The notes under the pieces are model-generated. The model was not told where the DNA came from. It searched no databases and worked only from the letters and a program-made list of their open reading frames with translations. The position numbers and the translations under genes are program-made. A stretch of 64,000 nt of DNA from Mucilaginibacter daejeonensis. GTDB taxonomy: Bacteria; Bacteroidota; Bacteroidia; Sphingobacteriales; Sphingobacteriaceae. Positions 1 to 53,485 of this stretch are shown in pieces. Position 1 is the first letter of the stretch, and every line of letters starts with the position of its first letter. The stretch lies in contig NZ_CP086068.1 of the NCBI RefSeq assembly GCF_020783335.1, positions 1,860,001 through 1,924,000 of the forward strand. The letters run 5' to 3'.

Positions 1-1194
1 CGGTTTACCGTGCTTTCCAGGAAAAAAGGAACCTCTGATTACTCAGGCCGTACTTGGGACGTTGATTATCTGAAAAAAGCAGGATGGAAGCTAATTATAA
101 ATACGCAGGAAGAAGTATCTTCCCTACTGGCAGCATGGCAACATTTATCAGAATCGCATCTGAACGGTTTTGATGGTTTTAAGCCAAATACGCTGGTCAT
201 TTGGCAAGGGCTGTTCAAGTTCGAAAGTTATCTGGAGACCAATAACCGACAAAAGGCGCTGAAAAAAGAAATTACTGAAGTTACCAGTGAGTATCTGGCT
301 TTGGTCTTTCATAGATTCATGGAGCGTGCCAACAAACCGCTCCGTATCAGAATAAATAATAGTATTATAACCCCATTTAACCCTTTTCCTGAAAACGAAA
401 AAGATTTCCGGCAAATGGAATTTCGGCAAAAGAGCTTCCGCAGTGACACGATAAAGATGGAAGGATTTATTCTGCCCTCGCGGAGTATTGAAGAAAGCCG
501 GGATAATCACAATATCTGGACCACTAAAAATCGTGGCTTAATGGATATGGAAGGTATTTATCTGTACCGGGCGGACAGGGTTATTTTATTTGGAGGCTGG
601 AACGGACTGATCAGGAAGGCACCTAGGCTTCAACTAGCACGTTTGCGTGTCGAAGTTGGAAACAGCGTTGATCATTTGCTTCACCTTAATGTTGCAAAAT
701 CACAGATTGCTATACCGCATGACCTGAAAAACGCATTTGAGAATTATATTACAGAACTTAAAACAGAGGCCGAAAGAGAGTATTTTAACCGCGGAGTTCA
801 TAAATTTTCAAGTGTCGGAAAGAAGGATTCAGTTCAGTTGTTTCAGCGCAGGTCTTCCAGTAAGGGAGTATTGCTGGAAATCAATACCGACTTTACGCTG
901 GTAAGTAACTTGGCAGCTTCGCTTGATGCGCGTCAGCAATCTCAGTTTCGCCTCATTATGAGAATGGTAAATACTACTGTCAACCAGATTAAACAATCAC
1001 ACCAGGATGTAGGGTTTGTCGAAAACAACGATGTTCATAGAGGGCTTAACAGTAGTGATATTAAATTATTTATTGAAGAACTGAAGGCTTCAGGCATCAG
1101 TACCGATCAGATAAAAAAGGAAATATTACCTGGTCTGGGCTATTCGCTCAGTTCTTTTCCAACCGACGTACGCAACCTATTGAATCTATCTTAA
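1..1194 (+). CDS. GHKL (MutL/MORC-like) ATPase of a Z1-AIPR defence operon, C-terminal part
   Basis: This is an open reading frame already open at base 1; the GTG at 10 is only the first start-like codon seen, so the protein is probably truncated by the window edge. What remains (about 397 residues) lacks the N-terminal ATP-binding Bergerat motifs, which would lie upstream. It matches the transducer-like and C-terminal part of the ATP-binding proteins that precede Z1 genes: a GIYLYRADRVI segment followed by a basic GWNGL stretch and an LARLRVEVGN segment resembles the S5-like half of MORC ATPases. The stop codon shares one base with the ATG of the Z1 gene, and the next two genes also overlap, so all four are one translationally coupled operon. 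In known loci of this type a DNA cytosine methyltransferase often lies upstream; none can be seen here. The family call rests mainly on the neighbours and this segment. Confidence 0.7.
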   Translation, partial: RFTVLSRKKGTSDYSGRTWDVDYLKKAGWKLIINTQEEVSSLLAAWQHLSESHLNGFDGFKPNTLVIWQGLFKFESYLETNNRQKALKKEITEVTSEYLALVFHRFMERANKPLRIRINNSIITPFNPFPENEKDFRQMEFRQKSFRSDTIKMEGFILPSRSIEESRDNHNIWTTKNRGLMDMEGIYLYRADRVILFGGWNGLIRKAPRLQLARLRVEVGNSVDHLLHLNVAKSQIAIPHDLKNAFENYITELKTEAEREYFNRGVHKFSSVGKKDSVQLFQRRSSSKGVLLEINTDFTLVSNLAASLDARQQSQFRLIMRMVNTTVNQIKQSHQDVGFVENNDVHRGLNSSDIKLFIEELKASGISTDQIKKEILPGLGYSLSSFPTDVRNLLNLS

Positions 1195-4100
1195 TGGCAA
1201 AAAATAACAGAGATTATATTGATCGCATGAAGCTTCTGGTAAGCGGCAAATTTGAAAGTTACCGTCAGGTGAACACTGCCGTAACCCGCGAATTTTTCGA
1301 GGCTCCCGGCCTTCGTGATGAGATAAGAGCTAATATGAAGATGCTTGCCGGCATGGGAATCCCTGTACCCGGCGAAGATAAGTTCGACGATCTTTTTACA
1401 ATAGCGCTCAGGGAGTCCCGTCTTGCTCATACACAGGGGATGACCCCAAGCGTATCGCTCAGCAGTAAAGACGCAAGAAAACGCAGCTGGCTCACACCGC
1501 AACGAATTGCCGCTCTCAAGTGGGACGATGATGAACTCATCACGTACAGGGCGCGGTATCTGGGCTTCCTGAAGAAAATGGGGCGTTCAAGGTCTTATAT
1601 TAAAGAGACAAAGAGGTCCAGCCTGGAGATCCTGAAAAAAATGGGTGATCCTTTATCTCAGGAACCATTTTTTGTAAGAGGGTTGGTAGTTGGAAGCGTG
1701 CAGTCAGGCAAAACGGCAAATTTCAATGCAGTGATCAACAGCGCTATAGATGCGGGATATGACCTGATCATTGTTCTATCCGGAATCATGGAGGATCTCC
1801 GCAGCCAAACACAAAAGCGAATTGAAAAAGAGGTAGAGGGTAAATATAAGGCCGGTAGTTTTATAGGTGTGGGCGAGATATCATCCTTTGGCTCCCTTGG
1901 TGCCTATCCTGACGTAAAACAAATCGTCGTGCCCACTTCTCCGGATACAGACTTCAGTAAATCCATTAAGGAAGCTGATTTTTCCCTGAACAATAAGAAT
2001 ATTCTTATTTGCAAAAAAAACACAAGTGTTCTAAAAAATCTTTTGCTCTGGCTTCACAGTTATCTGAATAAGAATAAGGATAAGATTAACATTCCCTTTC
2101 TGATTGTTGATGATGAGGCTGATAATGCTTCACTCAACAATTTAGGCGAGAAGGGGATAGAATATGCCTCGGTCATCAATGGTCATATCCGTGCATTGTT
2201 GGCTCTGTTTAACCGCAAAACTTACCTTGGATACACTGCCACGCCTTTTGGCAACGTCCTGCAGGATCGGAATGAAGCGCCGGCATTAAAGTGGCGGATC
2301 GACGAAAAAGCAGGGGGTGAAATACTTACCACCTATTTTGATCTTGAAAAAAGCCTTTTTCCTGATGATTTTATAGAGTTGCTTTTCCCACCACCAAATT
2401 ATGTGGGTCCAAAGCATTTTTTTCGTACACGCCTTGACGAGGTAGTTAAGATAGACCCGCTTATAGCACCGCCGGTCAGGGACTACCGCCCGTCATTCCC
2501 GGAAAGGGTTTGGAAAGATGATGCCAGATCCGGTCAACCCGGAACACCGGCATTTGAACATACCCGTGAAACGCGGGCAGCGGCGAAGTCAGACCGTTTT
2601 CCCGTAGTTCTTCCGGAATCGCTTAAGGATGCGGTCATGTGTTTTTTCGTATCTGTTGCTATACGTATCAGCCGTAAACCGGATATGATAGACTCTGCGG
2701 TTTTTCAACCGCATAATACGATGCTGATACACATTTCCCGGTTTACGGAGTGGCAGACAAGGACAAAAAATCTTATTCAGGATTTTGTTGATGAATTGAC
2801 CCGTGACCTTGATTCTGACCTGCCCTCTGATAAAAATTCTGTCTATGGTGTTTTCGAACGCATCTGGTATAAGTATTACGCATATGTTATAGAAAACATC
2901 AGCAGTTATCTGCCCCAGGGATATGATGATCCTTTTCTAATTCCTAAAACTTTTGAAGATATTAAACCACTGCTCATGACGGCGATTTCCGGTGTTGAGG
3001 TCAAAGCGATTAACAGTGAAACCAAAGATTCACTTGAATATCCGGATCACACGGAAAAGAAATATATCGCTGTTGGTGGAAACCGGCTTTCGAGAGGCTT
3101 CACGCTCGAAGGCCTGACCATCAATTACTTTATTCGTAATACTAATTTTGCGGATACATTACTGCAAATGGGGCGCTGGTTTGGTTACCGGCCAGGTTAC
3201 CTGGATTGCTGTAAACTCTTTTCAACCGCAGATTCACTGGAAAAGTTCGATCAGACCACCTATACAATGGAGGATCTTGAACAGAAATTTATAGATATGA
3301 ACCGCGACCCGGAGAATACACCTTCCAAGTATGCTCTGCTGGTGCTTAAACATCCGGGCACGCTCAGGATCACCCGGCCATCCATATTGAAAAATGCTAA
3401 AGAAGTAAACTGGTCATTTTCTGATCAGCTGGAACAAACAACTTGGTTCAGTCTTGATCCGGTGCGGATTAAAACTGCATGGGATGCTTTCAGGACGCAT
3501 ACTGTAAAGAGAAATAATCGTTTCACATTTGAAAAAAATGGTTACATGCTGATCTCAGATGCCACGACAGAGGATGTGATCAGCTTTTTAAATCTTCCCA
3601 ATACTTTTCTTGACGATAATCGGAAACCAGGAGAGAACTATTTTGCTGATCTGATCGCCTTTATACGTCTGGCCAATCAAAACGATAAGCTGATCGACTG
3701 GACAATAGGTGTTAAATTAGCCGGAGCGAGTGACACAACACTTGATAAAGAAGAAACCGGATTTGTAAAGGATATACAGTTGACCCAACGCAGCGGACCT
3801 GACCCCGAAAAATCTGGAAGATGGCTTAATTATATCAGGGACGAGCACATTTTCCGTGCAGGCGGAAATTCTGCTAACATCGTGACTGGCTCTAACGATA
3901 TGGCTGTAGCTCTTACGGATGAAGAAGAAGTCAAAGCCAAAAAAGATTGGCGCGACGAACTGTACATTCAGCTTAAAGCTGAGAATCCCAGTTGGACCGA
4001 GGACGAATTGCAAAAAGAGATCAGACGTAAAAATATTCCGGAAAAAGCATTCAGACAAAAGATGAATCATCGTCAGGGAGTGCTGATGATATATCTGATC

Positions 4101-4325
4101 GACACCGCCGAAGTTTTCAGGCACCGGGGACGCGATATAGAAGAACTTGCAGCTGTTCGTGAGCATGTTGGAACAGATATACCACTGATCGGTTATGCTA
4201 TGGGAATTCCACCATTGGGCGTTGATATCGGTGGTACTTATCTGCAAAGCAGACATCATCCGGAGCCAGAACCACCTGCGCCGGATGACGACAATTATGA
4301 TGACTACAAAACAATATTGGAATGA
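1194..4325 (+). CDS. Z1 domain-containing SF2-type ATPase/putative endonuclease
   Basis: A 1043-residue protein with a superfamily-2 helicase-like core joined to a Z1 domain (Pfam PF10593). Visible motifs: Walker A GSVQSGKT at about residues 166-173, a DEAD-like Walker B DDEAD at about 306-310, TATPFG at about 348, GGNRLSRGFTLEG at about 628, and GRWFGYRPGY at about 660, which supplies the arginine-finger motif. Z1 proteins sit beside MutL/MORC-like ATPases, DUF4420 nucleases and AIPR proteins in restriction-type operons (Iyer, Abhiman and Aravind 2008 described this association). The likely role is nucleic-acid translocation or remodelling for restriction of foreign DNA; the activity of Z1 itself is not settled. 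The start overlaps the upstream stop (TAATG) and the end overlaps the next gene by 4 bases (ATGA). Confidence 0.9.
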   Translation: MAKNNRDYIDRMKLLVSGKFESYRQVNTAVTREFFEAPGLRDEIRANMKMLAGMGIPVPGEDKFDDLFTIALRESRLAHTQGMTPSVSLSSKDARKRSWLTPQRIAALKWDDDELITYRARYLGFLKKMGRSRSYIKETKRSSLEILKKMGDPLSQEPFFVRGLVVGSVQSGKTANFNAVINSAIDAGYDLIIVLSGIMEDLRSQTQKRIEKEVEGKYKAGSFIGVGEISSFGSLGAYPDVKQIVVPTSPDTDFSKSIKEADFSLNNKNILICKKNTSVLKNLLLWLHSYLNKNKDKINIPFLIVDDEADNASLNNLGEKGIEYASVINGHIRALLALFNRKTYLGYTATPFGNVLQDRNEAPALKWRIDEKAGGEILTTYFDLEKSLFPDDFIELLFPPPNYVGPKHFFRTRLDEVVKIDPLIAPPVRDYRPSFPERVWKDDARSGQPGTPAFEHTRETRAAAKSDRFPVVLPESLKDAVMCFFVSVAIRISRKPDMIDSAVFQPHNTMLIHISRFTEWQTRTKNLIQDFVDELTRDLDSDLPSDKNSVYGVFERIWYKYYAYVIENISSYLPQGYDDPFLIPKTFEDIKPLLMTAISGVEVKAINSETKDSLEYPDHTEKKYIAVGGNRLSRGFTLEGLTINYFIRNTNFADTLLQMGRWFGYRPGYLDCCKLFSTADSLEKFDQTTYTMEDLEQKFIDMNRDPENTPSKYALLVLKHPGTLRITRPSILKNAKEVNWSFSDQLEQTTWFSLDPVRIKTAWDAFRTHTVKRNNRFTFEKNGYMLISDATTEDVISFLNLPNTFLDDNRKPGENYFADLIAFIRLANQNDKLIDWTIGVKLAGASDTTLDKEETGFVKDIQLTQRSGPDPEKSGRWLNYIRDEHIFRAGGNSANIVTGSNDMAVALTDEEEVKAKKDWRDELYIQLKAENPSWTEDELQKEIRRKNIPEKAFRQKMNHRQGVLMIYLIDTAEVFRHRGRDIEELAAVREHVGTDIPLIGYAMGIPPLGVDIGGTYLQSRHHPEPEPPAPDDDNYDDYKTILE

Positions 4326-5290
4326 TGATGACAGTTGCCGCACTTGAACCAGTATGGCCTGAACTCCTTCATTCTGGTAGTTCAGAATTTGAGTTTAGGA
4401 GAATAGATAGCATCTGTATTCCCGAATTAAATATCGGAGTGAATGGTAAACTGCATCGTTGTCTGATCCTTGAATTGCCTAAGGGAACGCTTGGCAGCTG
4501 GCCGACAGTCATCAGAGACAATCTCAGCCTTTGCTGGTATCCTGACACCGCCTACATTGTTGTTGAGCTGCTTGATGCAAGCTATAATGATCTTTTTAAC
4601 GACCTTATAATTTCTATCTACCGGCAGGTTTCCGGACTGTCCCGCGCAGATGAATATATTAATGGCCTGATCCGGATCTTTAATAAATGGAGCGGTTTTT
4701 TCGACTCACGACAAACCGGACGAATGCAACCTGAAACACTCCGAGGACTAATCGGAGAACTTATCATCCTGAGAAATCTGATTGGGCCAGCAGCTCCTGA
4801 TGCGGTTAACAGTATTTTGGCGTCATGGAGAGGACCTTACGATGAGGTAAGGGATTTTATTACAGATGGCCTGGATACTGAGGTAAAGACAACGGATGGC
4901 AATTCGGATATACGTATTTCCAGCGAATTTCAATTGCAAACTGAAACAGGTAAAGAACTGCATCTTGCAGTGGTAGTAATGGAACCAGACCTGACCGTTG
5001 GGATTTCATTAAAAAGCCTGGTCAACGAGATTCGGGTATTGTCTGATACTTTGCTCGCTGATCCGTCTTTATTACCTGATGCTTTATTTCAAAAGGGGTT
5101 AACCTTCAGGAATTTATCCGACTATGATAATTTCCGGTTCCGCATCCGGAGGATTATTCGTTATGACTGTTTGCAGGATGGCTTTCCTGCTCTTTTAAGA
5201 AATGACCTTCCACTGGCAGTATATCAGGTTACCTACCGGTTACGCCTCTCCCTGCTCAGTAGTTTTATCATTCAAACAACGGAAATGTAA
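4322..5290 (+). CDS. PD-(D/E)XK motif protein (DUF4420-like nuclease)
   Basis: A 322-residue protein whose size and place between Z1 and AIPR genes match the PD-(D/E)XK motif protein family (Pfam PF14390, DUF4420). A restriction-endonuclease-fold active site can be read as E146 in IGEL, then D185-T-E187-V-K189 in the DTEVK segment, in the correct order and spacing. It is therefore the best candidate for the DNA-cutting subunit of the operon. The start is one of three tandem ATG codons (4322, 4325, 4328); the first gives an ATGA overlap with the Z1 stop, so translational coupling is likely. The stop TAA shares a base with the ATG of the AIPR gene. Confidence 0.85.
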   Translation: MMMTVAALEPVWPELLHSGSSEFEFRRIDSICIPELNIGVNGKLHRCLILELPKGTLGSWPTVIRDNLSLCWYPDTAYIVVELLDASYNDLFNDLIISIYRQVSGLSRADEYINGLIRIFNKWSGFFDSRQTGRMQPETLRGLIGELIILRNLIGPAAPDAVNSILASWRGPYDEVRDFITDGLDTEVKTTDGNSDIRISSEFQLQTETGKELHLAVVVMEPDLTVGISLKSLVNEIRVLSDTLLADPSLLPDALFQKGLTFRNLSDYDNFRFRIRRIIRYDCLQDGFPALLRNDLPLAVYQVTYRLRLSLLSSFIIQTTEM

Positions 5291-7698
5291 TGGAAATTGA
5301 CGAATATCTGATCTACCGTAAAGAACTGCTTGCTGAATCGGCAGATAACGACGGTTTTGTACAGCAAAATCTTTTTCTTTCCGAAGTGTTGCCTTTGATG
5401 GCAGATGCCCGTTTGATCGATTCAGAAGAATGTAATGATGCCTATTATACCTATCCGCAGGACAACCTGAAAATTAACGGTTACCTGGTAAACGAATCAG
5501 GCGAACGCCTTCAGCTTTTTCTGGTAGATGAATCGTCGATTGACCTGAACGCTACAAACGAGAATTTAAAAATATCCACAAAGGTGCACTATGATACTCA
5601 GTTCAAGCGTGCGCTCCGTTTTGTTTCACAAGCGGTGAAAGGTCACCTGACCGAAGAGCTGCAATTATCAAGCCCTGTACGTGCGCTGGCTACACAACTT
5701 GCATCAGGTGCCGGTGCAGACCAGTTCGATGTAATCGAGATATTTCTTATTTCAGCGACAGCAACTGTTGACAACCGCGGCTCGTTTCCACAGCCGCGCC
5801 GTCTTGAGTTCGAAGATGAGAAACTCAGCATCACGTTTAGTCACAAGCGTGAACGTACATCTAAAGAGTTATTGGTACTCAAAAGTCTTATTGACCTGAA
5901 TTTTTTATACAACGTAGTCATCTCACAGGGCAGTCGGGAGCCACTGGTTATTGATTTTGAAAAAACATTCGGCTACCGTGTTGAAGCACTGGAGGCAGCA
6001 AGTGAGGATAATTTCGAGTCATACCTTTGTGTGCTGCCCGCAATTGTGCTTGCTGATCTTTATAAACGGTACAGTTCCCGCCTGTTGGAGAAGAACGTTC
6101 GGTCATTTTTGCAGTTCAAGGGTGCAAATGCAGGCATCCGGGAAACTATTCGTAAAAATCCTGAAAAATTCATTGCTTACAATAATGGTATCACGGTAAC
6201 CGCGACGCATATGGACCGGATTACAGAAAATGGGCGGATTTATATCCGGTCGCTGCGTGATTTTCAGATTGTCAATGGTGGCCAGACGACCGCAAGTATC
6301 TTTTTTACACGGAAGGACGGATTTTCTGTGGATAAGGTGCGTGTGATGGCAAAAATTAATGTTGCACGGGATGTCCCGGAAAATAAACTGGACGAACTTA
6401 TATCAAACATCAGTAAATTTTCTAACTCACAATCCAAAGTATCTTCCGTCGATCTTGATTCAAGAAACCCTCAGCTTACCCGTATCAAAGCACTATCAGA
6501 GAGTATTATTACTCCGACCGGTAAACGCTGGTTTTTTGAAAAGGCCAAAGGGGAATTCAACACTAAACTACGTATCGCCGGCAATAATCGAAATCGCATC
6601 GAACGCGATTACCCGCGTGACATGCGTTTTTCTAAAGAACAATTAGGAAAATACTTCACTTCATGGGGAGACCAGCCTTATGTAGTTAAGAAGGGTGGTG
6701 ACAAAGTATTCCGCTACTTTATTGATGCCATTTCAGGTGAGGATACCCTTAATAAACCTGAAATTGACAGGGCTTTTTATGAAATGCTGATTGCCAGGGT
6801 CATTCTGTTTAAAAGTTTCGAAAATATTTACGGGCAGGGGAAAAATTCAATTGGTCAGATCAGGTCTGCGGTGGTGCCATATTCAATTTCAGTAATTTAC
6901 CGATACACTGACGGACAAAAGGGAGGCAGATTATTTGACCTCGCCAAGTTGTGGCTCAGGGAGGGGATTGAGGAAGATCTGTCTGAGTTTGCACGCCAGC
7001 TCATGGAGTTGATGAATGACCTGATCCGTAAATATGCTGCCAGCGATGACTTGGGCGAATACTCAAAGCGGAAGGAATTATGGGAAGGCATCAGGGAGAG
7101 TACTGAACTGAGTTCTTTTATGAACACGCAGTTTGCTACAGAGATTTTAGATAAATTTACTGTACCGAGGGGTGTTGCAAAAGAAAAGGCTGGAAAGAGA
7201 AATAAGACTAAAGAAGTCGATTTCGGATTGCTGAACGCCAATGTCACCATCTTTAGCAGAACAGCGGATTTTTACCAGAAGCTTGGGTTAAAGCTGGCTG
7301 ACAAGATAACCACCGCACAACGAAAGAAGGTAGATCATATAGCTCATTGTATCGCCAGTAAAAAGGATATACTTCCTGAATATGTCGAGTTTGAAAAAGA
7401 ACTTATCCGCAACGTCCGGACATCATGGCCGGATGTTTTGAATAGCATCGATATTCCGCAGCAGGACCACTGGATGATTGCATTCTACGGTATAGTTTCC
7501 CTGTACAACCGTTGTGTGTCAGAGAAGCTTGATGTATCTTCGGAATTTCAGAAGCAGCGCGAGCTGGCTAAAGTACGGGGACATAAATACTATTCAGTTT
7601 ATGATGAAATAGGTAAAACGTTGGCCGGTGGCCAGCCACCCTCCATTAAATTTTTAGAAAACGTTAACTATTTTTCTCAGTCGGTACACAAGCAATAA
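5290..7698 (+). CDS. AIPR family (abortive infection phage resistance) protein
   Basis: An 802-residue protein of the AIPR family (Pfam PF10592), named for an abortive-infection phage-resistance protein and often found in restriction operons. Hallmarks are FIAYNNGITVTA at about residues 293-304 and VNGGQTTAS at 328-336, followed by a segment beginning ISKFSNSQSKV. The biochemical role of AIPR proteins is poorly defined; in this setting it is probably a sensor or effector working with the GHKL, Z1 and nuclease proteins. Its ATG shares one base with the upstream stop, so this is the last gene of the coupled four-gene operon. A 58-bp AT-rich gap then separates it from the next module. Confidence 0.9.
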   Translation: MEIDEYLIYRKELLAESADNDGFVQQNLFLSEVLPLMADARLIDSEECNDAYYTYPQDNLKINGYLVNESGERLQLFLVDESSIDLNATNENLKISTKVHYDTQFKRALRFVSQAVKGHLTEELQLSSPVRALATQLASGAGADQFDVIEIFLISATATVDNRGSFPQPRRLEFEDEKLSITFSHKRERTSKELLVLKSLIDLNFLYNVVISQGSREPLVIDFEKTFGYRVEALEAASEDNFESYLCVLPAIVLADLYKRYSSRLLEKNVRSFLQFKGANAGIRETIRKNPEKFIAYNNGITVTATHMDRITENGRIYIRSLRDFQIVNGGQTTASIFFTRKDGFSVDKVRVMAKINVARDVPENKLDELISNISKFSNSQSKVSSVDLDSRNPQLTRIKALSESIITPTGKRWFFEKAKGEFNTKLRIAGNNRNRIERDYPRDMRFSKEQLGKYFTSWGDQPYVVKKGGDKVFRYFIDAISGEDTLNKPEIDRAFYEMLIARVILFKSFENIYGQGKNSIGQIRSAVVPYSISVIYRYTDGQKGGRLFDLAKLWLREGIEEDLSEFARQLMELMNDLIRKYAASDDLGEYSKRKELWEGIRESTELSSFMNTQFATEILDKFTVPRGVAKEKAGKRNKTKEVDFGLLNANVTIFSRTADFYQKLGLKLADKITTAQRKKVDHIAHCIASKKDILPEYVEFEKELIRNVRTSWPDVLNSIDIPQQDHWMIAFYGIVSLYNRCVSEKLDVSSEFQKQRELAKVRGHKYYSVYDEIGKTLAGGQPPSIKFLENVNYFSQSVHKQ

Positions 7699-9025: not shown

Positions 9026-10349
9026 TGCTTTATACGATAACCTAATCTTATTGCTGGATACATTAGTTGGTGCAAATGCAGATGCATTTGAATTGACATT
9101 GGCCGAACCTGATAAAACAAAGTTTGCAACGATTATAACAAGTCTTATAGATGAGCAAAACATTGTAGATGCAGCCAGGGCCGGTGGGCTCATATATCAA
9201 AACGCTGATCTGATCATACAATCATTAAACAACCTTACTAATGATTTTCCGGGATTTTTAACGCCAAGAAAGGACCAGATTATAAGCTATCTGATTTTAT
9301 TTAAATTTTTAATTAAAAATTGGACTCTTATCCCAAATCACAGATTAAGACCTGCGATTTTTAAGCTAAAAGATATTCAGATAGGCTCAATTTTACATAA
9401 AAACTATTTCTATCATGACACGGCTGATTTAGCCAATTCTGTTTTTTTGCTAACGTTAAATAATGTTACAGAATTATATGATTATCTTGACTCCTGTACA
9501 ATCTCAGAGATTTTAATTTTGCATGTTCTTGTAAAATTGGATGCATCGGTAGATCTGGCTCATGACACATTTATTTTAATCAGATCGCAGCGAACCTACA
9601 ATACAAAACAGATATTGTCATTCGTCAAGTTTCAGATGATAATGGAAGGAATGTTCACTCATCAGCCTTATGAAATAAATCATATCCCGGCTACAACAAA
9701 TCGGAAAAGAATAAAAATTGGTAATGGCTACCACCAATTTGCGGATACATTAATGATCCTGAGTGAGTATAATTATCAAAAAGACCTCCTTGATAAATAT
9801 TTAAGACTTTATCATGTACTGGAGAATAATATGTACAGGACTCAGATTGTAAAGGTTGAAAGGGAATCAACCGGCAGTGTATTTTCAATAAGGGAATTTC
9901 AGCGCCTATACAAGAAAATAACCAAAGGTGAAGAGGATGTTCTCGGCGGATTATTTAAGGATGCTTTTGAGTTGGATTATGATCCAAACCCAGTAGTTAA
10001 GTTGAAAACGTATATAATGTCTCTGCTAAAAACCGTTAGGACAGGTATGACGCCAGTAGTGATTAATGCCATGTTTACACGCATGAATTTAAATATTGAT
10101 GTCAATACAGTCACCAACGGAAGCCTGCTCAGTTTTTATACTTCAGTAGTATATAAGTTTCGCAATTCAATGGTGCATAATAGAGAAACAGAGTTTCACC
10201 TAATGCACGAAACTCTTTCAAACGACATAAAGCGCTTTATTGAGCAATTTTTGATTCCGACTATGGAGGAAATGGTCATTTTATTGACTGTCGAACGGAA
10301 CTCAGTTGTGTGGTACACGAACCCACATATTAGTGTCTACCAAGAGTAA
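9012..10349 (+). CDS. Uncharacterised protein with a C-terminal HEPN-like RNxxxH motif
   Basis: A 445-residue, mostly helical, AT-rich-coded protein without a recognisable N-terminal domain. Near the C-terminus the sequence YKFRNSMVHNRE places R384 and H389 in an R-N-x3-H arrangement, the active-site signature (Rx4-6H) of HEPN-fold RNases, followed by a helical segment as expected. No membrane segment or signal peptide is visible. The start ATG at 9012 lies inside the end of the preceding DGQHR-like gene (14-base overlap), so the two products are probably made together and may act as sensor or control protein plus RNase effector. This function is inferred; the overall fold of the first 350 residues is unknown to me. 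Confidence 0.55.
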   Translation: MRTINALYDNLILLLDTLVGANADAFELTLAEPDKTKFATIITSLIDEQNIVDAARAGGLIYQNADLIIQSLNNLTNDFPGFLTPRKDQIISYLILFKFLIKNWTLIPNHRLRPAIFKLKDIQIGSILHKNYFYHDTADLANSVFLLTLNNVTELYDYLDSCTISEILILHVLVKLDASVDLAHDTFILIRSQRTYNTKQILSFVKFQMIMEGMFTHQPYEINHIPATTNRKRIKIGNGYHQFADTLMILSEYNYQKDLLDKYLRLYHVLENNMYRTQIVKVERESTGSVFSIREFQRLYKKITKGEEDVLGGLFKDAFELDYDPNPVVKLKTYIMSLLKTVRTGMTPVVINAMFTRMNLNIDVNTVTNGSLLSFYTSVVYKFRNSMVHNRETEFHLMHETLSNDIKRFIEQFLIPTMEEMVILLTVERNSVVWYTNPHISVYQE

Positions 10350-11110
10350 TTATTCAATTATCAGACACCATTTGCAGCACTTTCATAAGCTTGACAGTCC
10401 ATTATATGCAGTTGTCGATTACTTTGGAAATGAGTTTTTTTATTTTCCGCTAAAACTTCTTTCGGCAACATCGGAAGCCCTCTGATAATTAATTTTGGTG
10501 TATGCGTTAGGAACGCGACACGAAAGTTGTAAGAGAAAACAGCCTTCCTAGCAATGGGCAAAACACCCTATTACGCAGCTAGACCCGTTGCCAAACTTTA
10601 TATTGTAGAAACCGATGACTGATTACACAAGCAATACAATCCATAGACTAAAATAATTTTCCTTTGCTTTACTTTTCAAATATAAAGAAAATGTTACTTT
10701 TTGATCATTTGTAAATATGGTGAACAAGCAAACTACGATATATTAGGGCTTTTATCAGCCAAAATAACATCAATTAATAATTCACTTAAAAGTGCGCATT
10801 TTGCAGTTACTAAAAATCAAAAAGCAATAAAGTTTCATGATAACCCTGTTCATCTAATCGCAAATTAAATCATCGGATGGGAAATATAAATTGATCCGCA
10901 CCAATTTTTGTTGCTATATTGAGGGCTATCACTTTTGCCTTGTATTGCACCATTGCCAATACTGTTATGGCGCGCTTAAACTCCGCTCAAACGCAAGCAG
11001 CTTACTGATGAATGACGAAAATCCCATAGGCATTGATATTGTAAAGCACCCTAATTCGTGAGCAGCATTGTAATTATCTTCGTATATATGTGGGAAATAA
11101 CCTACTCATT
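10350..11110. other. About 760 bp without a convincing gene; probably decayed island DNA
   Basis: No reading frame of credible length or composition is seen on either strand. The longest, 66 codons on the minus strand at 10361-10561, reads like chance translation. The stretch mixes AT-rich sequence with short GC-richer patches, such as 10960-11000, as expected of degraded accessory genes. It separates the AT-rich DGQHR/HEPN module from the nuclease module. I see no tRNA, clear terminator or repeat array in it. Confidence 0.5.
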
Positions 11111-11356
11111 ATGGCAACGCAAAACCTATTTATTCCCTCGGGCATGTATTTCGGGGTAACAGATCTACCGAAAGAAGTAAATGAAAACCAAAAGTTCTCG
11201 GTCAACCTGAGTGATAACCGCCCCGAAAGGATCATTGAATATACGCCCTACGATACCTGGGTTCAGACCGAAGGCTTTCCCATGCTGGATTCACACCTTG
11301 AACTGTTGGGCCGGGCGATCAAAATCAATTTTAAGGAACTATTTTCAATTGCATGA
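11111..11356 (+). CDS. Small uncharacterised protein upstream of the interrupted nuclease gene
   Basis: An 81-codon frame starting MATQNLFIPSG, with protein-like composition (acidic and hydrophobic residues mixed, no low complexity). A GTG at 11090 would add seven residues, but the ATG at 11111 is preferred. It ends 15 bases before the ATG at 11372 of the nuclease gene and in the same direction, so the two could be an operon, for example regulator or antitoxin plus nuclease. I do not recognise the family. Given that the downstream gene is interrupted, this one could also be a remnant. Confidence 0.4.
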   Translation: MATQNLFIPSGMYFGVTDLPKEVNENQKFSVNLSDNRPERIIEYTPYDTWVQTEGFPMLDSHLELLGRAIKINFKELFSIA

Positions 11357-11371
11357 AGCGCCGACTGACCA

Positions 11372-13093
11372 ATGGATGAACTCGAAAAGCTTTCAGGGGA
11401 ACTAAAAACCTTTGTGGCTAGGTATGACCCTGACGCTTTTATTACCCGTACCACTTCCCTAGTCAAAGGCATCACGATGCCTTCGCAGCAAGCTGCCATA
11501 CGCGGTTTGATCTCACCCTTGCGATAGTTGCTTTACTTGGCTTACCTCAACCTTTCGTCCGATCCGGCAGAAGTTACCACAAGCAGTTTTCCGCAAAACG
11601 AATGGGATCATATCAAAAGGCAGCTTTACTTGATCAATGAAATCTACGATACGACTTACGGTGAACAAAAAGCAATAGCGGATAGTCAGGACGGGGAACA
11701 ACTGGCCAAAAGAGCGGTAGCTTTATCGACCTATAACGCCTTTTTTCACCAAGGACCGCTTAAGTTTGAGGAACAGATCATTGAAAAGATACAGCAGGTC
11801 TTTAAGCATGTGCATAAGGAAGTGCTGGCCGGGGTAAAAATTTCACCGGACGATCTGATCGCTATCTATGACATAATGGATAATTTGCAACATCAGAAGA
11901 TCAACCGCCGTTTTCGTAAGGATGAGGCGGAGGAACAGCAGTTTCTGGATGAAATCCGGCAGGGGATCACCAGCGGTGCTTTTTCTTTTCAGGAAGGCAT
12001 GAGGACAATTGCCGAAAAAGACTACGAACTGTTCGAACTGGAAACAAACCCTGCCGCCGGTCATTTCTTTACCAGGGATGAATTAACGGACCGTTACGAC
12101 GCGCAAAAGGTGGACGTGTTCCTATCCTCATTTTCTATTACCCGCCAGCAAGATAATGGATTTCTATTCTTTAGCGGCAAAAACAAGGTATTGTCAAAGC
12201 CGGTTTACCGGATGAACGATGGCCGGTATTTGGTCATCGACTATAAACTGTTGCTCGATGCCATCTACAGTTTCCTGACCGACGCAGCGATTGCCGCTGT
12301 CGGTGACAGTAATCGCATTACCCGGACTAGGGACAAATTTTTAGAGTCTAAAACAGCACAGATATTCCGTGATTTTTATGCAGGGGATAAAAAGGCCGTC
12401 TTTTATGAAAATTATTATGTTGATGGCTCCGAACATGATTTGCTAGTGCTTTCCAACAAAACCGCGCTGATTATTGAGGCGAAGGCCGGAAACGTGCGCG
12501 AACCTTCCTTTGACCCTGACCGGGCCTATGATAAGATCAAAAAGGACTTTGATAAAACCATTAAATATGGCTACGAGCAAACCTTTAAGATCAGGGAGTA
12601 TTTTATTGACCGGCAGCCGTTTGAAATTTTCAATGAAAAAAAAGAACGCCAGGCGGCCATCAACCCAAAAGATTTCAAACAGGTGTTTTCTATTATAGTG
12701 ACCCTCGAAAAGTTCGGGCATATACAGAATGACCTGGCTTTTATGCTGGAGCTGTTCGAGGACGACGTTAATCCCTGGTCGGTCTGCATCGACGACTTCG
12801 AAATATTCTTGCTGGCCATGAAAAAGAAAGGCTTTATGACCCAGGACTTTCACTTGTTCCTGAACCTGCGGCGTGTCCTGCATGGCAACCTGATCACCAA
12901 TGATGAAGGCCGGATCACCGGGCATTTTCTCACCCACCGGAATTTTCTGAAAATGCGCAATGCCCACGGCACCTACCGACCGGTAGCGGCTGAGGATATG
13001 ATTTATGACCAGCTGTATGAGAAGGTGCTGGGCTTCAGAGACGAGCGAATGGCCGACGTTAAAAGGGACCCGCGATACACGAAGCTATATTGA
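11372..13093 (+). CDS. PD-(D/E)XK restriction-endonuclease-like protein, interrupted by an in-frame TAG
   Basis: The frame from ATG 11372 encodes 51 residues (beginning MDELEKLSGELK, ending ISPLR), then a TAG at 11525-11527, then 521 more residues in the same frame starting LLYLAYLNLSSD. Both sides look like continuous protein, so this appears to be a roughly 573-codon gene with one nonsense codon. The long part holds a nuclease-type motif EHDLLVLSNKTALIIEAKAG: D304, E317 and K319 counted from the TTG at 11528, a D-x12-E-x-K pattern of the PD-(D/E)XK fold, close to NERD-like nucleases. If the stop is real, expression would need a start at the TTG 11528, for which I see no ribosome site, or readthrough. 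Position in the island suggests defence against foreign DNA. It could be a pseudogene. Confidence 0.7.
11525..11527 (+). other. In-frame amber (TAG) codon within the nuclease gene
   Basis: The codons around the stop read CTC-ACC-CTTs in other frames, but in the coding frame they run TTG CGA TAG TTG CTT. One base change (CAG to TAG) would restore a glutamine and a continuous 573-codon gene. No frameshift is needed, since the frame is the same on both sides. Confidence 0.75.
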
Positions 13094-13147: not shown

Positions 13148-13915
13148 TCATTTGCTTTCGCCTGGTAACTCATCGCTTAATTTGGAATAGCGCCATTCCA
13201 GGTGTCGGCAATAGCCATCGATATCAGGAAATACAGAGGCGCTGTTCACACCCATGATGTGCAATTGTTTCCGGATAGCCGCGAATTGTGCAGCAGGAAT
13301 GGTTACCTTGGTCAGCTTCTTGCTGAAAGTACGGTGCGTTTCAAACCTGATCATTTTGCCGCCTTCGTTGATTTTATGGACAGTGAATACGCCGGACTGC
13401 GCGGATATTCTTCTGGATACTACCGTGGAACGGAATATTTTGGTGATCTTGTTGCTTAACGGGTCGATCAGCTCTGTGTTGGTTCTGAAATCTTTGACGT
13501 CAGCATTCAATATCCAGACTACCCCGTCAAGCGGCTGTTTATTTTTGTCGATTTTCGCGGGCCTCGACACCGTGAACCACAAAGCGACTAAAGCGCTGTA
13601 GGTCCAGTCCAGCAAGCGCGTTGGCAGGCCATGATGCTGTGCCAGGGCCAGCAGGTCCCAATTATTTTCAGGCTGAAATTCAGATAAAGGCAGTATGCCC
13701 CGCTTAAATTCCTCCAGCATCAGTTTTTCGATATTGGTGATCTTTCCCTTTAAGGTTAACCGTGCCAGTTTGGGCAATAAGGGACTGTCGGAGTTCTGCC
13801 CCCGGAACAACAGGTCGGTTTTATTGCCCTTGTTTTCACTATTGGTTTTTATCTTTTCTATCAAGGCTGCATAGTCTTGGATATTTATCACTTCCTGAAA
13901 AGAATAATTAGGCAT
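13148..13915 (-). CDS. FRG domain-containing protein
   Basis: A 255-residue protein with the FRG domain (Pfam PF08867). The name-giving FRGQ tetrapeptide follows the N-terminal segment, at about residues 52-55, and the second block reads LLALAQHHGLPTRLLDWT followed by ALVALWF, typical of the family. FRG proteins occur widely in phages and defence islands, but the enzymatic role is not established. The gene is convergent with the nuclease gene, whose stop lies 54 bases away, and downstream of nothing else on its strand before the integrase. Two TGTAAC hexamers lie just upstream of its start, at 13943 and 13971. The start MPNYSF at 13915 is the only reasonable one. Confidence 0.85.
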   Translation of the reverse strand: MPNYSFQEVINIQDYAALIEKIKTNSENKGNKTDLLFRGQNSDSPLLPKLARLTLKGKITNIEKLMLEEFKRGILPLSEFQPENNWDLLALAQHHGLPTRLLDWTYSALVALWFTVSRPAKIDKNKQPLDGVVWILNADVKDFRTNTELIDPLSNKITKIFRSTVVSRRISAQSGVFTVHKINEGGKMIRFETHRTFSKKLTKVTIPAAQFAAIRKQLHIMGVNSASVFPDIDGYCRHLEWRYSKLSDELPGESK

Positions 13916-14242: not shown

Positions 14243-15466
14243 TTATAGCGATAATTTACTTTGAAGCATTTTCATATCTTCCTTCAGCTTCCGTTCTACC
14301 ACCTTTGCATAAATTTGCGTAGTTGTAATTTTTGTATGCCCTAAAATCTTACTTACTGTCTCAATAGGTACACCATTGGACAATGTTACGGTCGTAGCAA
14401 AAGTGTGCCTGGCAATATGGAAAGTAACGTTTTTGATAATGCCGCAGCGATCAGCAATTTCTTTTAGGTAACTATTTACCTTTTGGTTTGATATTTTCGG
14501 AAAGACGCGGCCATCATACAGTGAACGTTCGTTGTCTTGATACTTATCAAGTATAGCGAGAGCTTTAGGTAAAAGCGGTACAACAACTGGAATTAAGGTC
14601 TTTTCTCGGCATGTCCTGATCCATCGGTCGCCGTCAGCACCTGTTACGATATGCTCCGGTTCCAAGTTACTTACGTCAACATAAGACAAGCCAGTATAAC
14701 AGCAGAACACAAACATATCCCTAACCATTTCCAAACGCTCAATGCCAAAATTCTTTTCCTCAATAGCTTTCAATTCCAGCTCGCTTAATTGCTCTCTAAT
14801 AACCTTTTGTATCTTCAATTTGTAAGTAGCGAAGGGGTCATTATTTATCCATTGGAGATTTAATGCGAGGTTAACCATCTTTTTTAAACGGATAATGTGT
14901 TTCATTACCCCGTTGTTGTTAAGCGGCTTTTGATGATCTTTAGGTTTATGGTTTCTAAGGAACACTTCGAAGTCTTTGACGAATTTATAGTTCAGCTGAT
15001 GAAGGTAAATGTCGTTTGCATTATATTGTAATCCTAAGAACTTCAATAAATACCGCTGAGTGACATAATAATGTTTCAGGGTACTCCATTTCAATTCTTC
15101 AGTAGAAGTTTCGTTGTGGTAGCTTATAAGGCGGCTCAGCGAATAAACTTCTGCTTCTTCACCGAGATACAGATCTTTAACCGCTTTAGCCGATAACATT
15201 TTCCTTTTGATCTGGAGCTCTTTATAACTATTCCCGATGGCAAGCCTTACTTCTTCAAGGTAATTATTAATGGATTTGACTTCGTCTTTATTACCCTTGG
15301 CGGCTCCCTTGCCGCCGTCCCAATTTTTGGGATCAACATTCTGTTTTAATGCGATGTAAGCACGCTGCCGATTAACGGTAACGCATGCATAGATGGGTTC
15401 TTTTCCGTCTTTCGCTTTGTCAGGACGGGTGGTAAAATGAATACCGAACGACTGTGATGTTTGCAT
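14243..15466 (-). CDS. Tyrosine-type site-specific recombinase (integrase), IntDOT-like
   Basis: A 407-residue Bacteroidota-type integrase: N-terminal arm-binding region (1-100), SAM-like core-binding domain (about 110-215) and catalytic domain (225-400). Active-site residues visible are K299, H350 and R353 in HIARHTF, H377 in LGHTKI and the nucleophile Y386 in TQIYAKV. The first catalytic arginine is replaced by serine (S261 in TGLSYVD), as known for the CTnDOT integrase family. It should catalyse integration and excision of the island at the tRNA beside it. It reads away from the tRNA, and its upstream region carries repeated 11-bp sites. No excisionase gene is recognisable nearby. Confidence 0.92.
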   Translation of the reverse strand: MQTSQSFGIHFTTRPDKAKDGKEPIYACVTVNRQRAYIALKQNVDPKNWDGGKGAAKGNKDEVKSINNYLEEVRLAIGNSYKELQIKRKMLSAKAVKDLYLGEEAEVYSLSRLISYHNETSTEELKWSTLKHYYVTQRYLLKFLGLQYNANDIYLHQLNYKFVKDFEVFLRNHKPKDHQKPLNNNGVMKHIIRLKKMVNLALNLQWINNDPFATYKLKIQKVIREQLSELELKAIEEKNFGIERLEMVRDMFVFCCYTGLSYVDVSNLEPEHIVTGADGDRWIRTCREKTLIPVVVPLLPKALAILDKYQDNERSLYDGRVFPKISNQKVNSYLKEIADRCGIIKNVTFHIARHTFATTVTLSNGVPIETVSKILGHTKITTTQIYAKVVERKLKEDMKMLQSKLSL

Positions 15467-15512
15467 AAAATTTAATTTTTGAGTTTTAATGTTTCATACT
15501 TCATCCCGTTTC

Positions 15513-15656
15513 AGGTAACACAATAGGTAACACAAACACTTTGAAAATTGACTTTAAAACGTAACTTTTAACGTTGTAATAAACTGTATTTCAATTCATT
15601 GAGGTGATTTGTGTTACCTAAGTTAAAAACAAAAAACAGGTAGTCGGATAGGTAAC
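15513..15656. repeat. Repeated AGGTAACACAA sites between integrase and tRNA; candidate integrase arm sites
   Basis: The 11-mer AGGTAACACAA occurs twice in direct orientation at 15513-15523 and 15525-15535, once inverted at 15609-15619, and a partial copy AGGTAAC sits at 15650-15656. The cluster lies immediately upstream of the integrase start and next to the tRNA. Such direct and inverted short repeats are typical arm-type binding sites of tyrosine recombinases, or autoregulatory sites. No binding data exist here, so the role is inferred. Confidence 0.55.
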
Positions 15657-15702
15657 GAGAACCTTGGCTTTACAAAGGGTTGGTAAAGGGATAATTAATG
15701 AA

Positions 15703-15735
15703 AAAACCCCTTAAATCGCTGATTTAAGGGGTTTT
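15703..15735 (-). terminator. Rho-independent terminator of the tRNA gene
   Basis: A perfect 15-bp stem (AAAACCCCTTAAATC, 15703-15717, against 15721-15735) with a three-base loop, followed on the minus strand by a run of T. It lies 26 bases past the tRNA 3' end and also separates the tRNA from the island. Confidence 0.8.
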
Positions 15736-15760
15736 CGGGGGTAGAGCTGGTCTACTTTGT

Positions 15761-15833
15761 GCGCCCACCTGGGCTCGAACCAGGGACCAAAAGATTATGA
15801 GTCTTCTACTCTAACCGACTGAGCTATAGGCGC
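15761..15833 (-). tRNA. tRNA with anticodon CAU (elongator Met or Ile2)
   Basis: A 73-base cloverleaf on the minus strand: acceptor GCGCCTA pairs with TGGGCGC (one G-T), D-arm GCTC/GAGT, anticodon arm GAAGA-CTCATAA-TCTTT giving anticodon CAT, T-arm CCTGG-TTCGAGC-CCAGG, discriminator A. CCA is not encoded. A CAU anticodon serves initiator Met, elongator Met or lysidine-modified Ile. The anticodon loop CTCATAA and the TTGGTC variable region resemble E. coli Ile2 as well as elongator Met, and I cannot decide between them. The integrase next to its 3' end makes this the probable attachment site of the island. Confidence 0.92.
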
Positions 15834-31936: not shown

Positions 31937-32743
31937 TTATTTAGTGTATCGTGCGGTCACGGTGCCCGGCTGTATCAACGTTTTGATCTGTGCGTAAGGC
32001 ACATCAACGGTGGTTTGCCCGGCGGCATATGGTTTGATCTCGTACTGATTGTATAGGAACGTTAATCCAAGAGGGGTGATCAAAAAGTTCTTGTTCAGCG
32101 CGAATCTGTCGTCCTTAAAAAAGTAATTGTCTTTCAATGAAGCCGTCTCGGTCAGGTTCTCCTGCTTGCGAAAGATCTTCTCGGCCACCTTGTTGAGTTC
32201 GGTCTCATAGCCGGGCTTGAGGATGTTCTCCAACTCTATTTTCTTGTCGGCCTTTACATCCCAATTGATGTAACGGGTCACGGTGCTGCCATGCGCGCCA
32301 CCTGCATACATATAGCCATCGTAGGCAAGGGTCACCAGGCTGCTATCCTGGCGCACTACACTCACTTTGCCATCCAACTCAAAGGAAACGCCTTTGCGGT
32401 CAGGCTCGTCGCGTTTAAAATCTTTGTAATCTTGCAGGAACTGACCGGTCAGGATCTGCAGGCCCGCCTTGCCCTTTTGAGGATCGAGCAGCATGGCCAG
32501 GCGTGTTACTACCGTATCGTTAAGCAGCGGTTGGTTGTCAAATACCGGGTACTTGAATTTTACTGAGGTGCAGTTAGTGTCGGCTTTGCTCTTGCAATCA
32601 TCGGCCTGGGTATTGATGGCCGTAAATTTATAGGTGAGCGTATCGGTGTATACGTTAGGGGTATCTACTTTGGGCTTGTCTTGAATACAAGAAGCCATAC
32701 CTGCGCATATACCTGCTAACGTGAAAAGTTTTATTGCTTTCAT
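31937..32743 (-). CDS. DUF3298 domain-containing lipoprotein
   Basis: A 268-residue protein with a lipoprotein signal peptide (lipobox ending at C19 in GMASC). The C-terminal half resembles DUF3298 (RsiV-like) proteins: YAGGAHGSTVTRYINWDVKADKKIEL and LTFLYNQYEIKPYAAGQTTVDVPYAQI. These domains occur in anti-sigma factor RsiV, which binds lysozyme, but most Bacteroidota members are of unknown role. Its ATG overlaps the GNAT stop by 4 bases and its stop abuts the lysC start, so it is within the operon. Confidence 0.85.
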   Translation of the reverse strand: MKAIKLFTLAGICAGMASCIQDKPKVDTPNVYTDTLTYKFTAINTQADDCKSKADTNCTSVKFKYPVFDNQPLLNDTVVTRLAMLLDPQKGKAGLQILTGQFLQDYKDFKRDEPDRKGVSFELDGKVSVVRQDSSLVTLAYDGYMYAGGAHGSTVTRYINWDVKADKKIELENILKPGYETELNKVAEKIFRKQENLTETASLKDNYFFKDDRFALNKNFLITPLGLTFLYNQYEIKPYAAGQTTVDVPYAQIKTLIQPGTVTARYTK

Positions 32744-52045: not shown

Positions 52046-53485
52046 TTGAAAAAAAATCTTCTATATAATATTTTACTAACAGTTAGTCAATTTATCCTTC
52101 CACTAATTAGCTTTCCGTATGCGTCTCGAATAATTGGCCCTCAGGGTATTGGAACTGTTAATTTCGTTGACAGTTTTACTCAGTATTTTGTTTTAATAGC
52201 TGCTTTAGGTATTCCTTACTATGGTGTTCGAGAAATAGCGAAGGTTAAGGATGATAATGAAAAAAAGTATAAATTGTTTAGTGAAATATTTTTCATCCAC
52301 ATAGTTTCCGCTGTTATAATATCTTTGGTCTATTTATTAGTTTCGTTATTTATACCACAACTTCACCGGAATTTGAGTTTAGTTTACATTGGTGTCAGTA
52401 TTATTATGGCTAATGTGTTTTCTTTAGAGTGGTTTTTTCAAGGCATTGGAGAGTATTCGTATATAGCAATAAGATCAATATTGGTAAGGTCTTTATCAGT
52501 TTTATTACTTTTCGTTTTGTTAAAAAATTCTAAGCAGGTAGAGGTATATTATCTGATCTTGGCAAGTGTATTTATCTTGAATGGTATATCAAATTTTTTA
52601 TACATACATAAAAAAGTGAGGATTAGTTTTTCAAACCTCAAATTGGATCAGCATTTTAAGCCTCTTCTTGTTATACTTAGCTCAAGTTTAGCAATTAGCG
52701 TTTATGTATATATTGATAATATTTTACTTGGTTTCTTGCAAAATGATGAAGCTGTTGGTTATTATTCAACCTCTGTAAAAATCGTAAAAATTCCTTTAGC
52801 ATTACTTGGTGCTATCAGCACTATTATAATTCCTCAAATAAGTAATTTTTATCATAAAGGTAATATTGACGAGGTTAGATCTCTAATAGATAAGTCGTTC
52901 AATTTTGTTTGTTTATTTGGTCTTCCGGTAATGATCGGTTTAACATTAAATGCCGAATTTCTTATTACAATTTTTGCGGGAGAAAAGTTCAAAAATGCCA
53001 TTATCATTGTTGAGATACTTTCGCCTATCATTTTTTTGATCGGCCTAAACAATTTGTTTGGAGTGCAAATATTAACGCCAATTGGGAAAGAAAAATTTTT
53101 GTTGAGGGGTGTGATTGTGGGTATGATATTTAGCTTGATAATAAACTTACTATTAGTACCAAAATATTCTTATATAGGATCAGCTATTGCAAATGTTATA
53201 ACAGAAATCATAGTTACGGCTTTTTGTTTTAAGTACTCTAAAAAGTTTATAAAATATACACCTGATTTAAAGGTACTATCTCAGTCTTTTTTTGTATCCA
53301 TATTATTTTATCCAATACATAAAGCAGTTGGGTGTTTACAAACACCAGTATTATATAAGGGCTTGTTCAGTATAGTAGCTTGTGCTACAATTTATCTTGC
53401 TTTTTTCCTTTTCCTTTTTAAAAACAAATATATTGACGCAGTTAAGCATAATGTTATGAAGAAACTATCAATAAATAAAGGTTAG
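52046..53485 (+). CDS. Wzx-type oligosaccharide flippase
   Basis: A 479-residue polytopic membrane protein (about 12-14 helices) of the MOP/polysaccharide-transporter family: N-terminal LISFPYASRIIGPQGIGTVNFVDSF and DNDEKKYKLFSEIFFIH, and middle EWFFQGIGEYSYIAIRS. It would flip the lipid-linked repeat unit across the inner membrane. The start is a TTG at 52046. One base separates its stop from the next start. Confidence 0.9.
   Translation: MKKNLLYNILLTVSQFILPLISFPYASRIIGPQGIGTVNFVDSFTQYFVLIAALGIPYYGVREIAKVKDDNEKKYKLFSEIFFIHIVSAVIISLVYLLVSLFIPQLHRNLSLVYIGVSIIMANVFSLEWFFQGIGEYSYIAIRSILVRSLSVLLLFVLLKNSKQVEVYYLILASVFILNGISNFLYIHKKVRISFSNLKLDQHFKPLLVILSSSLAISVYVYIDNILLGFLQNDEAVGYYSTSVKIVKIPLALLGAISTIIIPQISNFYHKGNIDEVRSLIDKSFNFVCLFGLPVMIGLTLNAEFLITIFAGEKFKNAIIIVEILSPIIFLIGLNNLFGVQILTPIGKEKFLLRGVIVGMIFSLIINLLLVPKYSYIGSAIANVITEIIVTAFCFKYSKKFIKYTPDLKVLSQSFFVSILFYPIHKAVGCLQTPVLYKGLFSIVACATIYLAFFLFLFKNKYIDAVKHNVMKKLSINKG

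Follow-up and report, generated by a model that had tools for sequence, protein, structure and literature searches.

An interrupted gene for a presumed defence nuclease in Mucilaginibacter daejeonensis and its relatives in Bacteroidota

Introduction

Upx is named as an antiphage system in PMC10855318. The gene described here, from Mucilaginibacter daejeonensis, would encode a protein of about half that size (573 codons against the 1212 residues of Upx), with a predicted fold that resembles it. At the level of sequence, other described proteins come into view. The Pfam domain NERD (PF08378) is matched by 30 of the 40 members of our family alignment at E ≤ 0.01, the best at 7.9e-7, and by the M. 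daejeonensis copy at E 0.0024 with 18.8 bits, below the curated cut-off of 22.1 bits; the helical N-terminus of the family falls outside this match. The NCBIfam model of GapS1 (NF047931) is matched by five of the 40 members, with a best E of 4.2e-8, and gives no match to the M. daejeonensis copy. In three relatives viewed singly the GapS1 match spans the nuclease part together with the segment that precedes it, and the scores of these relatives (20.5, 12 and, in G155, 31.4 bits) compare with a cut-off of 320 bits. A GapS1-like protein (L162) aligned to the family profile over this same region gave an hhalign E of 0.0019 at a probability of 14%.

The M. daejeonensis gene differs from its intact relatives in carrying a TAG codon in frame. 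We describe here the gene, its relatives and surroundings, and the explanations that may account for the stop.

The interrupted gene

The window, by which we mean the whole 64,000-nucleotide stretch of the M. daejeonensis chromosome that was analysed (1860001-1924000 of the single contig), contains a nuclease gene that starts with ATG at 11372 and closes with a TGA ending at 13093, all of its parts lying in one frame of 573 codons with the TAG counted. Residue numbers of the nuclease follow the full-length protein throughout. Its features are as follows.

11372..13093, plus strand: interrupted nuclease gene, whole; 51 codons, TAG, 521 codons, TGA; from the frame, homologue alignments and family profile
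11372..11524, plus strand: first 51 codons; predicted helices 2-15, 20-32 and 37-43 and the beginning of 49-61
11525..11527, plus strand: in-frame TAG, codon 52; Gln (24) or Asp (15) in 39 aligned homologues; within predicted helix 49-61
11528..11530, plus strand: TTG, candidate restart, directly 3' of the TAG; a plain Leu codon in the relative G173 too
11528..13093, plus strand: open 521-codon remainder, which carries the PD-(D/E)XK nuclease core
12344..12604, plus strand: NERD-like PD-(D/E)XK core, residues 325-411, with E354, D356, E369, K371 and Q403; from Pfam NERD and invariant columns

Apart from the TAG at 11525-11527, neither a stop nor a frameshift breaks the frame. A first-pass annotation, made from the sequence alone, had described 51 codons, a TAG and 521 codons in a single frame with the PD-(D/E)XK residues intact downstream. 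The reading frame and homologue alignments that run across the stop bear out the first part of this description, and the presence of E354, D356, E369, K371 and Q403 the second. The family profile covers the window copy over positions 1-553 of its 553, with the one TAG inside, and since both the alignments and the profile continue through the stop, the TAG lies inside one gene and a chance juxtaposition is excluded. A scan of the window for lone stops flanked on both sides by long open stretches in one frame found six places, the nuclease included. Two of the other five stops stand between clearly different genes: that at 53483 separates a flippase from a glycosyltransferase, and that at 31937, on the minus strand, DUF3298/PdaC from an amino-acid kinase. 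A genome search found no second copy of the nuclease in the 4.81 Mb genome.

The predicted product is presumably a single-protein nuclease composed of a helical N-terminal domain of about 300 residues and a NERD-like PD-(D/E)XK domain. The AlphaFold2 model of the full-length protein has a mean pLDDT of 88 and a pTM of 0.88, and places residue 52, the site of the TAG, inside helix 49-61. Assignment to the PD-(D/E)XK superfamily rests on the core fold, an acidic residue and the E-x-K motif, with E354, D356, E369 and K371 invariant. Comparison of the predicted model with Foldseek yielded no match at E ≤ 0.001 among PDB or viral models, and sequence comparison with solved structures yielded none that was convincing. 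PADLOC gave no match to the window copy at E 0.01; Csm3 alone appeared at E 0.1-0.12, which we take as chance.

Homologues at the stop site

To the window copy we aligned 39 homologues, chosen intact, in a 40-row alignment (A2) from which the broken copies L147 and L148, together with L152 and L153, were left out. At the column of the TAG, the 39 homologues have Gln in 24 cases and Asp in 15, and none of these intact-chosen sequences has a stop there. The Gln for which the first-pass annotation proposed to look at this position is present in the majority, with Asp in the other 15; two broken copies, G066 and G235, also have Gln. In all 39 the TAG column is preceded by an upstream segment of 42-52 residues, and none of them begins at the segment LLYLAYLNL, the finding that the annotation had named as contrary to an interrupted gene.

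G173, the nearest homologue, shares 59% identity with the window copy. Identity is nearly the same on the two sides of the stop (29/51 residues before it, 310/520 after), and so is the fraction of nucleotide differences that fall at third codon positions (0.65 before, 0.60 after), from which it follows that the N-terminal piece was constrained like the remainder until recently. Because the segment before the TAG has not drifted, the stop, as judged from these sequence comparisons, is young relative to the split between the window copy and G173. The window copy keeps 25 of the 27 columns that are invariant among the 39 homologues, all catalytic ones included, and 38 of the 45 columns in which one residue occurs in at least 36 of the 39. 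The two invariant columns that changed, 380 and 476, are ones at which G173 departs too, so these are changes of the lineage and not clear decay.

Genomic surroundings

The nuclease gene lies between an MZA-like operon on one side and an FRG-domain gene, a tyrosine recombinase and a tRNA-Met gene on the other.

10-7698, plus strand: MZA-like operon with MzaB, MzaC (Z1), MzaD (DUF4420) and MzaE (AIPR); NCBIfam matches
11111..11356, plus strand: small gene of 81 residues directly upstream of the nuclease; counterpart in the G173 locus (L051 10923-11156) 68% identical
13148-13915, minus strand: FRG-domain gene, candidate defence system PDC-S15; E 1.6e-79
14243-15833, minus strand: tyrosine recombinase beside tRNA-Met, a possible island end

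The matches to MzaB, C, D and E have E values of 1.2e-28, 7.3e-105, 5e-17 and 1.7e-80 and all fall below the curated NCBIfam cut-offs, for which reason we regard the operon as a divergent relative of MZA. Its first gene may start upstream of the window. The small 81-residue gene found no match in the other 10 of the 11 loci searched, nor did it recur as a neighbour cluster.

Over the 16 kb that end at tRNA-Met the G+C content lies at 0.35-0.46, and over the following 16 kb at 0.46-0.50. Composition nevertheless gives no clean island border, since the mean is 0.42 for the window as a whole and 0.47 for the 20 kb preceding it. A 22-base piece of tRNA-Met occurs once in the genome when up to three mismatches are allowed, and the 104 kb searched contain, outside the tRNA region itself, no stretch of it exceeding 13 bases; neither search thus found an attachment repeat that would mark the island ends. 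An island integrated at tRNA-Met, with the nuclease gene as its probable cargo, is likely.

The neighbours of other family members are of similar kinds. In five loci (L132, L133, L135, L139 and L140) the nuclease stands right behind JetD of a Wadjet system, the Jet domains having been checked on L132, and relaxase and coupling-protein genes come next, an arrangement for which domain checks covered one or two of these loci; the records are from Chitinophagaceae and, in one case, Bacteroidota. Type I restriction genes with checked domains surround the nuclease in L111 (5366-12465), L125 (3222-7707) and L150 (17-10940). An N6_Mtase lies upstream of the nuclease in each of these loci, and the HsdR gene follows it directly in L150 and one gene further in L111. 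In L111 the methylase (4362-5983) and HsdR (9784-12465) each appear split into two frames. Conjugative-transposon genes precede the nuclease in L115, L122 and L123, with domains checked on L123. No single partner recurs in most of the family loci. These neighbours support a defence role of the family without proving it.

Distribution of the family

Among 301 genomes from the host's taxonomic family, the bare query of the 521-residue remainder matched 15, the window's own included. Searches with the profile matched 23 of 400 genomes of the host's order and, at the level of the class, 6 of 395, some of the matches being distant relatives. A search of a collection with named organisms gave 49 loci, 43 of which are relatives over most of their length. 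These named relatives are nearly all from Bacteroidota (Pedobacter, Sphingobacterium, Flavobacterium, Chryseobacterium, Dysgonomonas, Hymenobacter, Chitinophagaceae and others), and single metagenome-assembled genomes with a family member are labelled Pseudoflavonifractor and Phycisphaerales. Plasmids supplied one relative, a distant one at 25% identity from outside Bacteroidota (L161 5824-7620, on a plasmid of Exiguobacterium acetylicum); it adjoins an IS3 transposase gene. Phage records held no relative, and among viral contigs none of 33 pattern matches was confirmed as one. As far as sequence comparison allows, the family is presumed to consist of single-protein nucleases of about 570 residues found mostly in Bacteroidota. 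We recognised no description of it in literature titles and abstract openings, a source with thin coverage of subscription journals and bioRxiv, and we do not claim that the family is unpublished.

Origin of the stop

The reading that we favour, and hold to be quite probable, is an ordinary event: recent nonsense inactivation of the sole copy of a presumed defence nuclease. The nuclease gene, probable cargo of an integrated island and lying among defence genes, would have been truncated recently at codon 52 by a single nonsense substitution; the full-length protein would then not be expected, and its loss may have been tolerated owing to the other defences present or to the cost of the nuclease. 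Such a stop would be expected to abolish function. The identity of the protein as a defence nuclease is presumed from its neighbours and predicted fold, and the intact family may act as an anti-phage effector, as suggested by the neighbours together with the Upx-like fold of the model. Recent inactivation was among the options listed in the first-pass annotation, and it gains support from the Gln or Asp at the TAG column and the upstream segment in all 39 homologues. As a counterpoint, the gene has no second lesion, which is compatible also with its use through restart or readthrough. The TAG allele was seen in one genome.

Compatible with recent inactivation is a wider proposal, which we consider possible and rather unlikely: that the family, its nuclease being costly, experiences unusual pressure towards inactivation, so that broken copies are common and the window copy is one case among them. 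The sample from the host's order consists of 19 of the 23 matched genomes, four distant ones at 75-78 bits (G016, G231, G299 and G349) having been dropped. Five of the 19 copies are broken, or 4 of 18 without the window copy: the window copy by its TAG, G066 and G235 by a frameshift, G048 by at least two frame breaks, and G259, which is a C-terminal remnant. Among the named loci 2 of 43 are broken, L147 (5971-7706) and L148 (5995-7697), the latter being the same copy as G235; in these the frameshift leaves two open halves, with an overlap of 4 bases in L147 and 22 in L148. Both halves of L147 and L148 are still similar to intact relatives. The union of the two sets, which have ten copies in common, contains 6 broken copies of 52 including the window copy and 5 of 51 without it. 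These counts leave out the contig-edge fragment G692 and the distant loci L154-L159 (6 of the 49), of which L157 has a stop inside the match.

As controls, AIPR/MzaE gave 33 matches in 32 of the 400 genomes searched in the order, all of them free of internal stops and splits, and HsdR, for which internal stops alone were counted in the 400 genomes, gave at least two rows with internal stops among the matches listed. By Fisher's test, the order sample (4/18) differs from AIPR (0/33) with p 0.012 and from the family copies outside the sample (1/33) with p 0.047, in comparisons that were picked after the data were seen. Over all unique copies (5/51) the difference from AIPR (0/33) has p 0.15, and HsdR with its internal stops likewise speaks against an unusual pressure. 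In one sample the excess of broken copies is thus suggestive, though it is not robust, and family-wide decay was rejected as a signal accordingly.

Returning to the single copy in the window, a restart at TTG 11528, which would yield a shortened working nuclease of 521 residues, is improbable. The codon follows the stop directly, as in stop-start coupled reinitiation, and the remainder retains the catalytic residues. None of the 39 aligned homologues begins at this site, however, and a start there would cost helices 2-15, 20-32 and 37-43 and the first residues of helix 49-61 of the model, along with one invariant column, S48. Since the Leu codon is common to the window copy and G173, the TTG did not arise as a start. 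The restart that the first-pass annotation had offered as an option therefore found no backing.

We regard it as quite improbable that the gene works and that the TAG came from a mistake in sequencing or assembly. It is a lone substitution in a frame without any other lesion, as an error might be; against this, the genome is a single contig and 99.89% complete. Finished genomes also contain substitution errors less often than indels.

Very improbable, in our view, is that the TAG is a maintained switch, in which the costly nuclease is kept off, a little product of readthrough or restart, perhaps raised on infection, suffices, and the broken relatives represent other settings.

Rfam returned 50 tRNA matches in the genome, 150 of 192 first-look candidates having been scored. 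ARAGORN called 48 of them, and the two that it missed were read by eye as GCC (L070) and GCA (L079); no CUA anticodon occurs among the 50. Searching with a loose pattern of CUA-type tRNAs returned 29 hits, two of them within tRNAs already listed, against 58 for the reversed control. A suppressor tRNA, another suggestion of the first-pass annotation, was rejected on the anticodons of these 50 matches. Folding of the RNA at the TAG is no better than that of shuffled sequences (z = 0.20), on which ground an RNA signal was rejected as well. TAG works as a stop here, terminating five of the window's 46 long open reading frames. That a suppressor tRNA or context signal lets the TAG be read through or recoded, keeping a toxic nuclease low, is accordingly very improbable: the frame is open on either side of the TAG and the catalytic residues are conserved, and against these stand the tRNA counts, the RNA folding, the lack of a stop at this column in all 39 homologues and the absence of any positive sign of deliberate silencing.

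Comparison with known systems

The broken gene itself is ordinary, and the nuclease family is the more useful result. For the core, the resemblances are to several PD-(D/E)XK enzymes of restriction and CRISPR-ancillary type. N.BspD6I matches the core of the model with Z 11.9 over 181 residues and the CRISPR-ancillary nuclease Can2 with Z 8.2 over 129 residues; the likeness to these, and to FokI and HindIII, is limited to the PD-(D/E)XK core region. The PADLOC model CARF_PDDEXK gives weak matches in 4 of the 40 members at E ≤ 0.01.

Upx (PDB 9wuf) extends further. It was ranked first by VIA-align for the full model, with Z 12.2 and rmsd 4.5 over 397 residues aligned to Upx 32-516, ahead of the nucleases that align over the core region. 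VIA-align notes that helical folds with Z below about 13 may share a common arrangement only, and for this reason the first 305 residues were folded (mean pLDDT 84) and compared separately. The N-terminal domain alone matched Upx 770-1095 over 228 residues with rmsd 5.1 and Z 12.8, a value that, like the 12.2 of the full model, lies within the range of that caution; the next row had Z 4.6. Sequence similarity to Upx was absent when the 40-sequence profile was compared with the PDB sequences, which returned one unrelated row at E ≤ 10. On the predicted structures, kinship of the nuclease family with Upx is credible but not proven. The two matching stretches, 32-516 and 770-1095, suggest that Upx may hold two such modules that arose by internal duplication.

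The family may matter as a Bacteroidota-wide nuclease with an Upx-like predicted fold at half the length, found near Type I restriction and Wadjet genes in some loci; it is compact and easily tested. Should Upx indeed contain two copies of this module, the family would reveal the action of one module alone.
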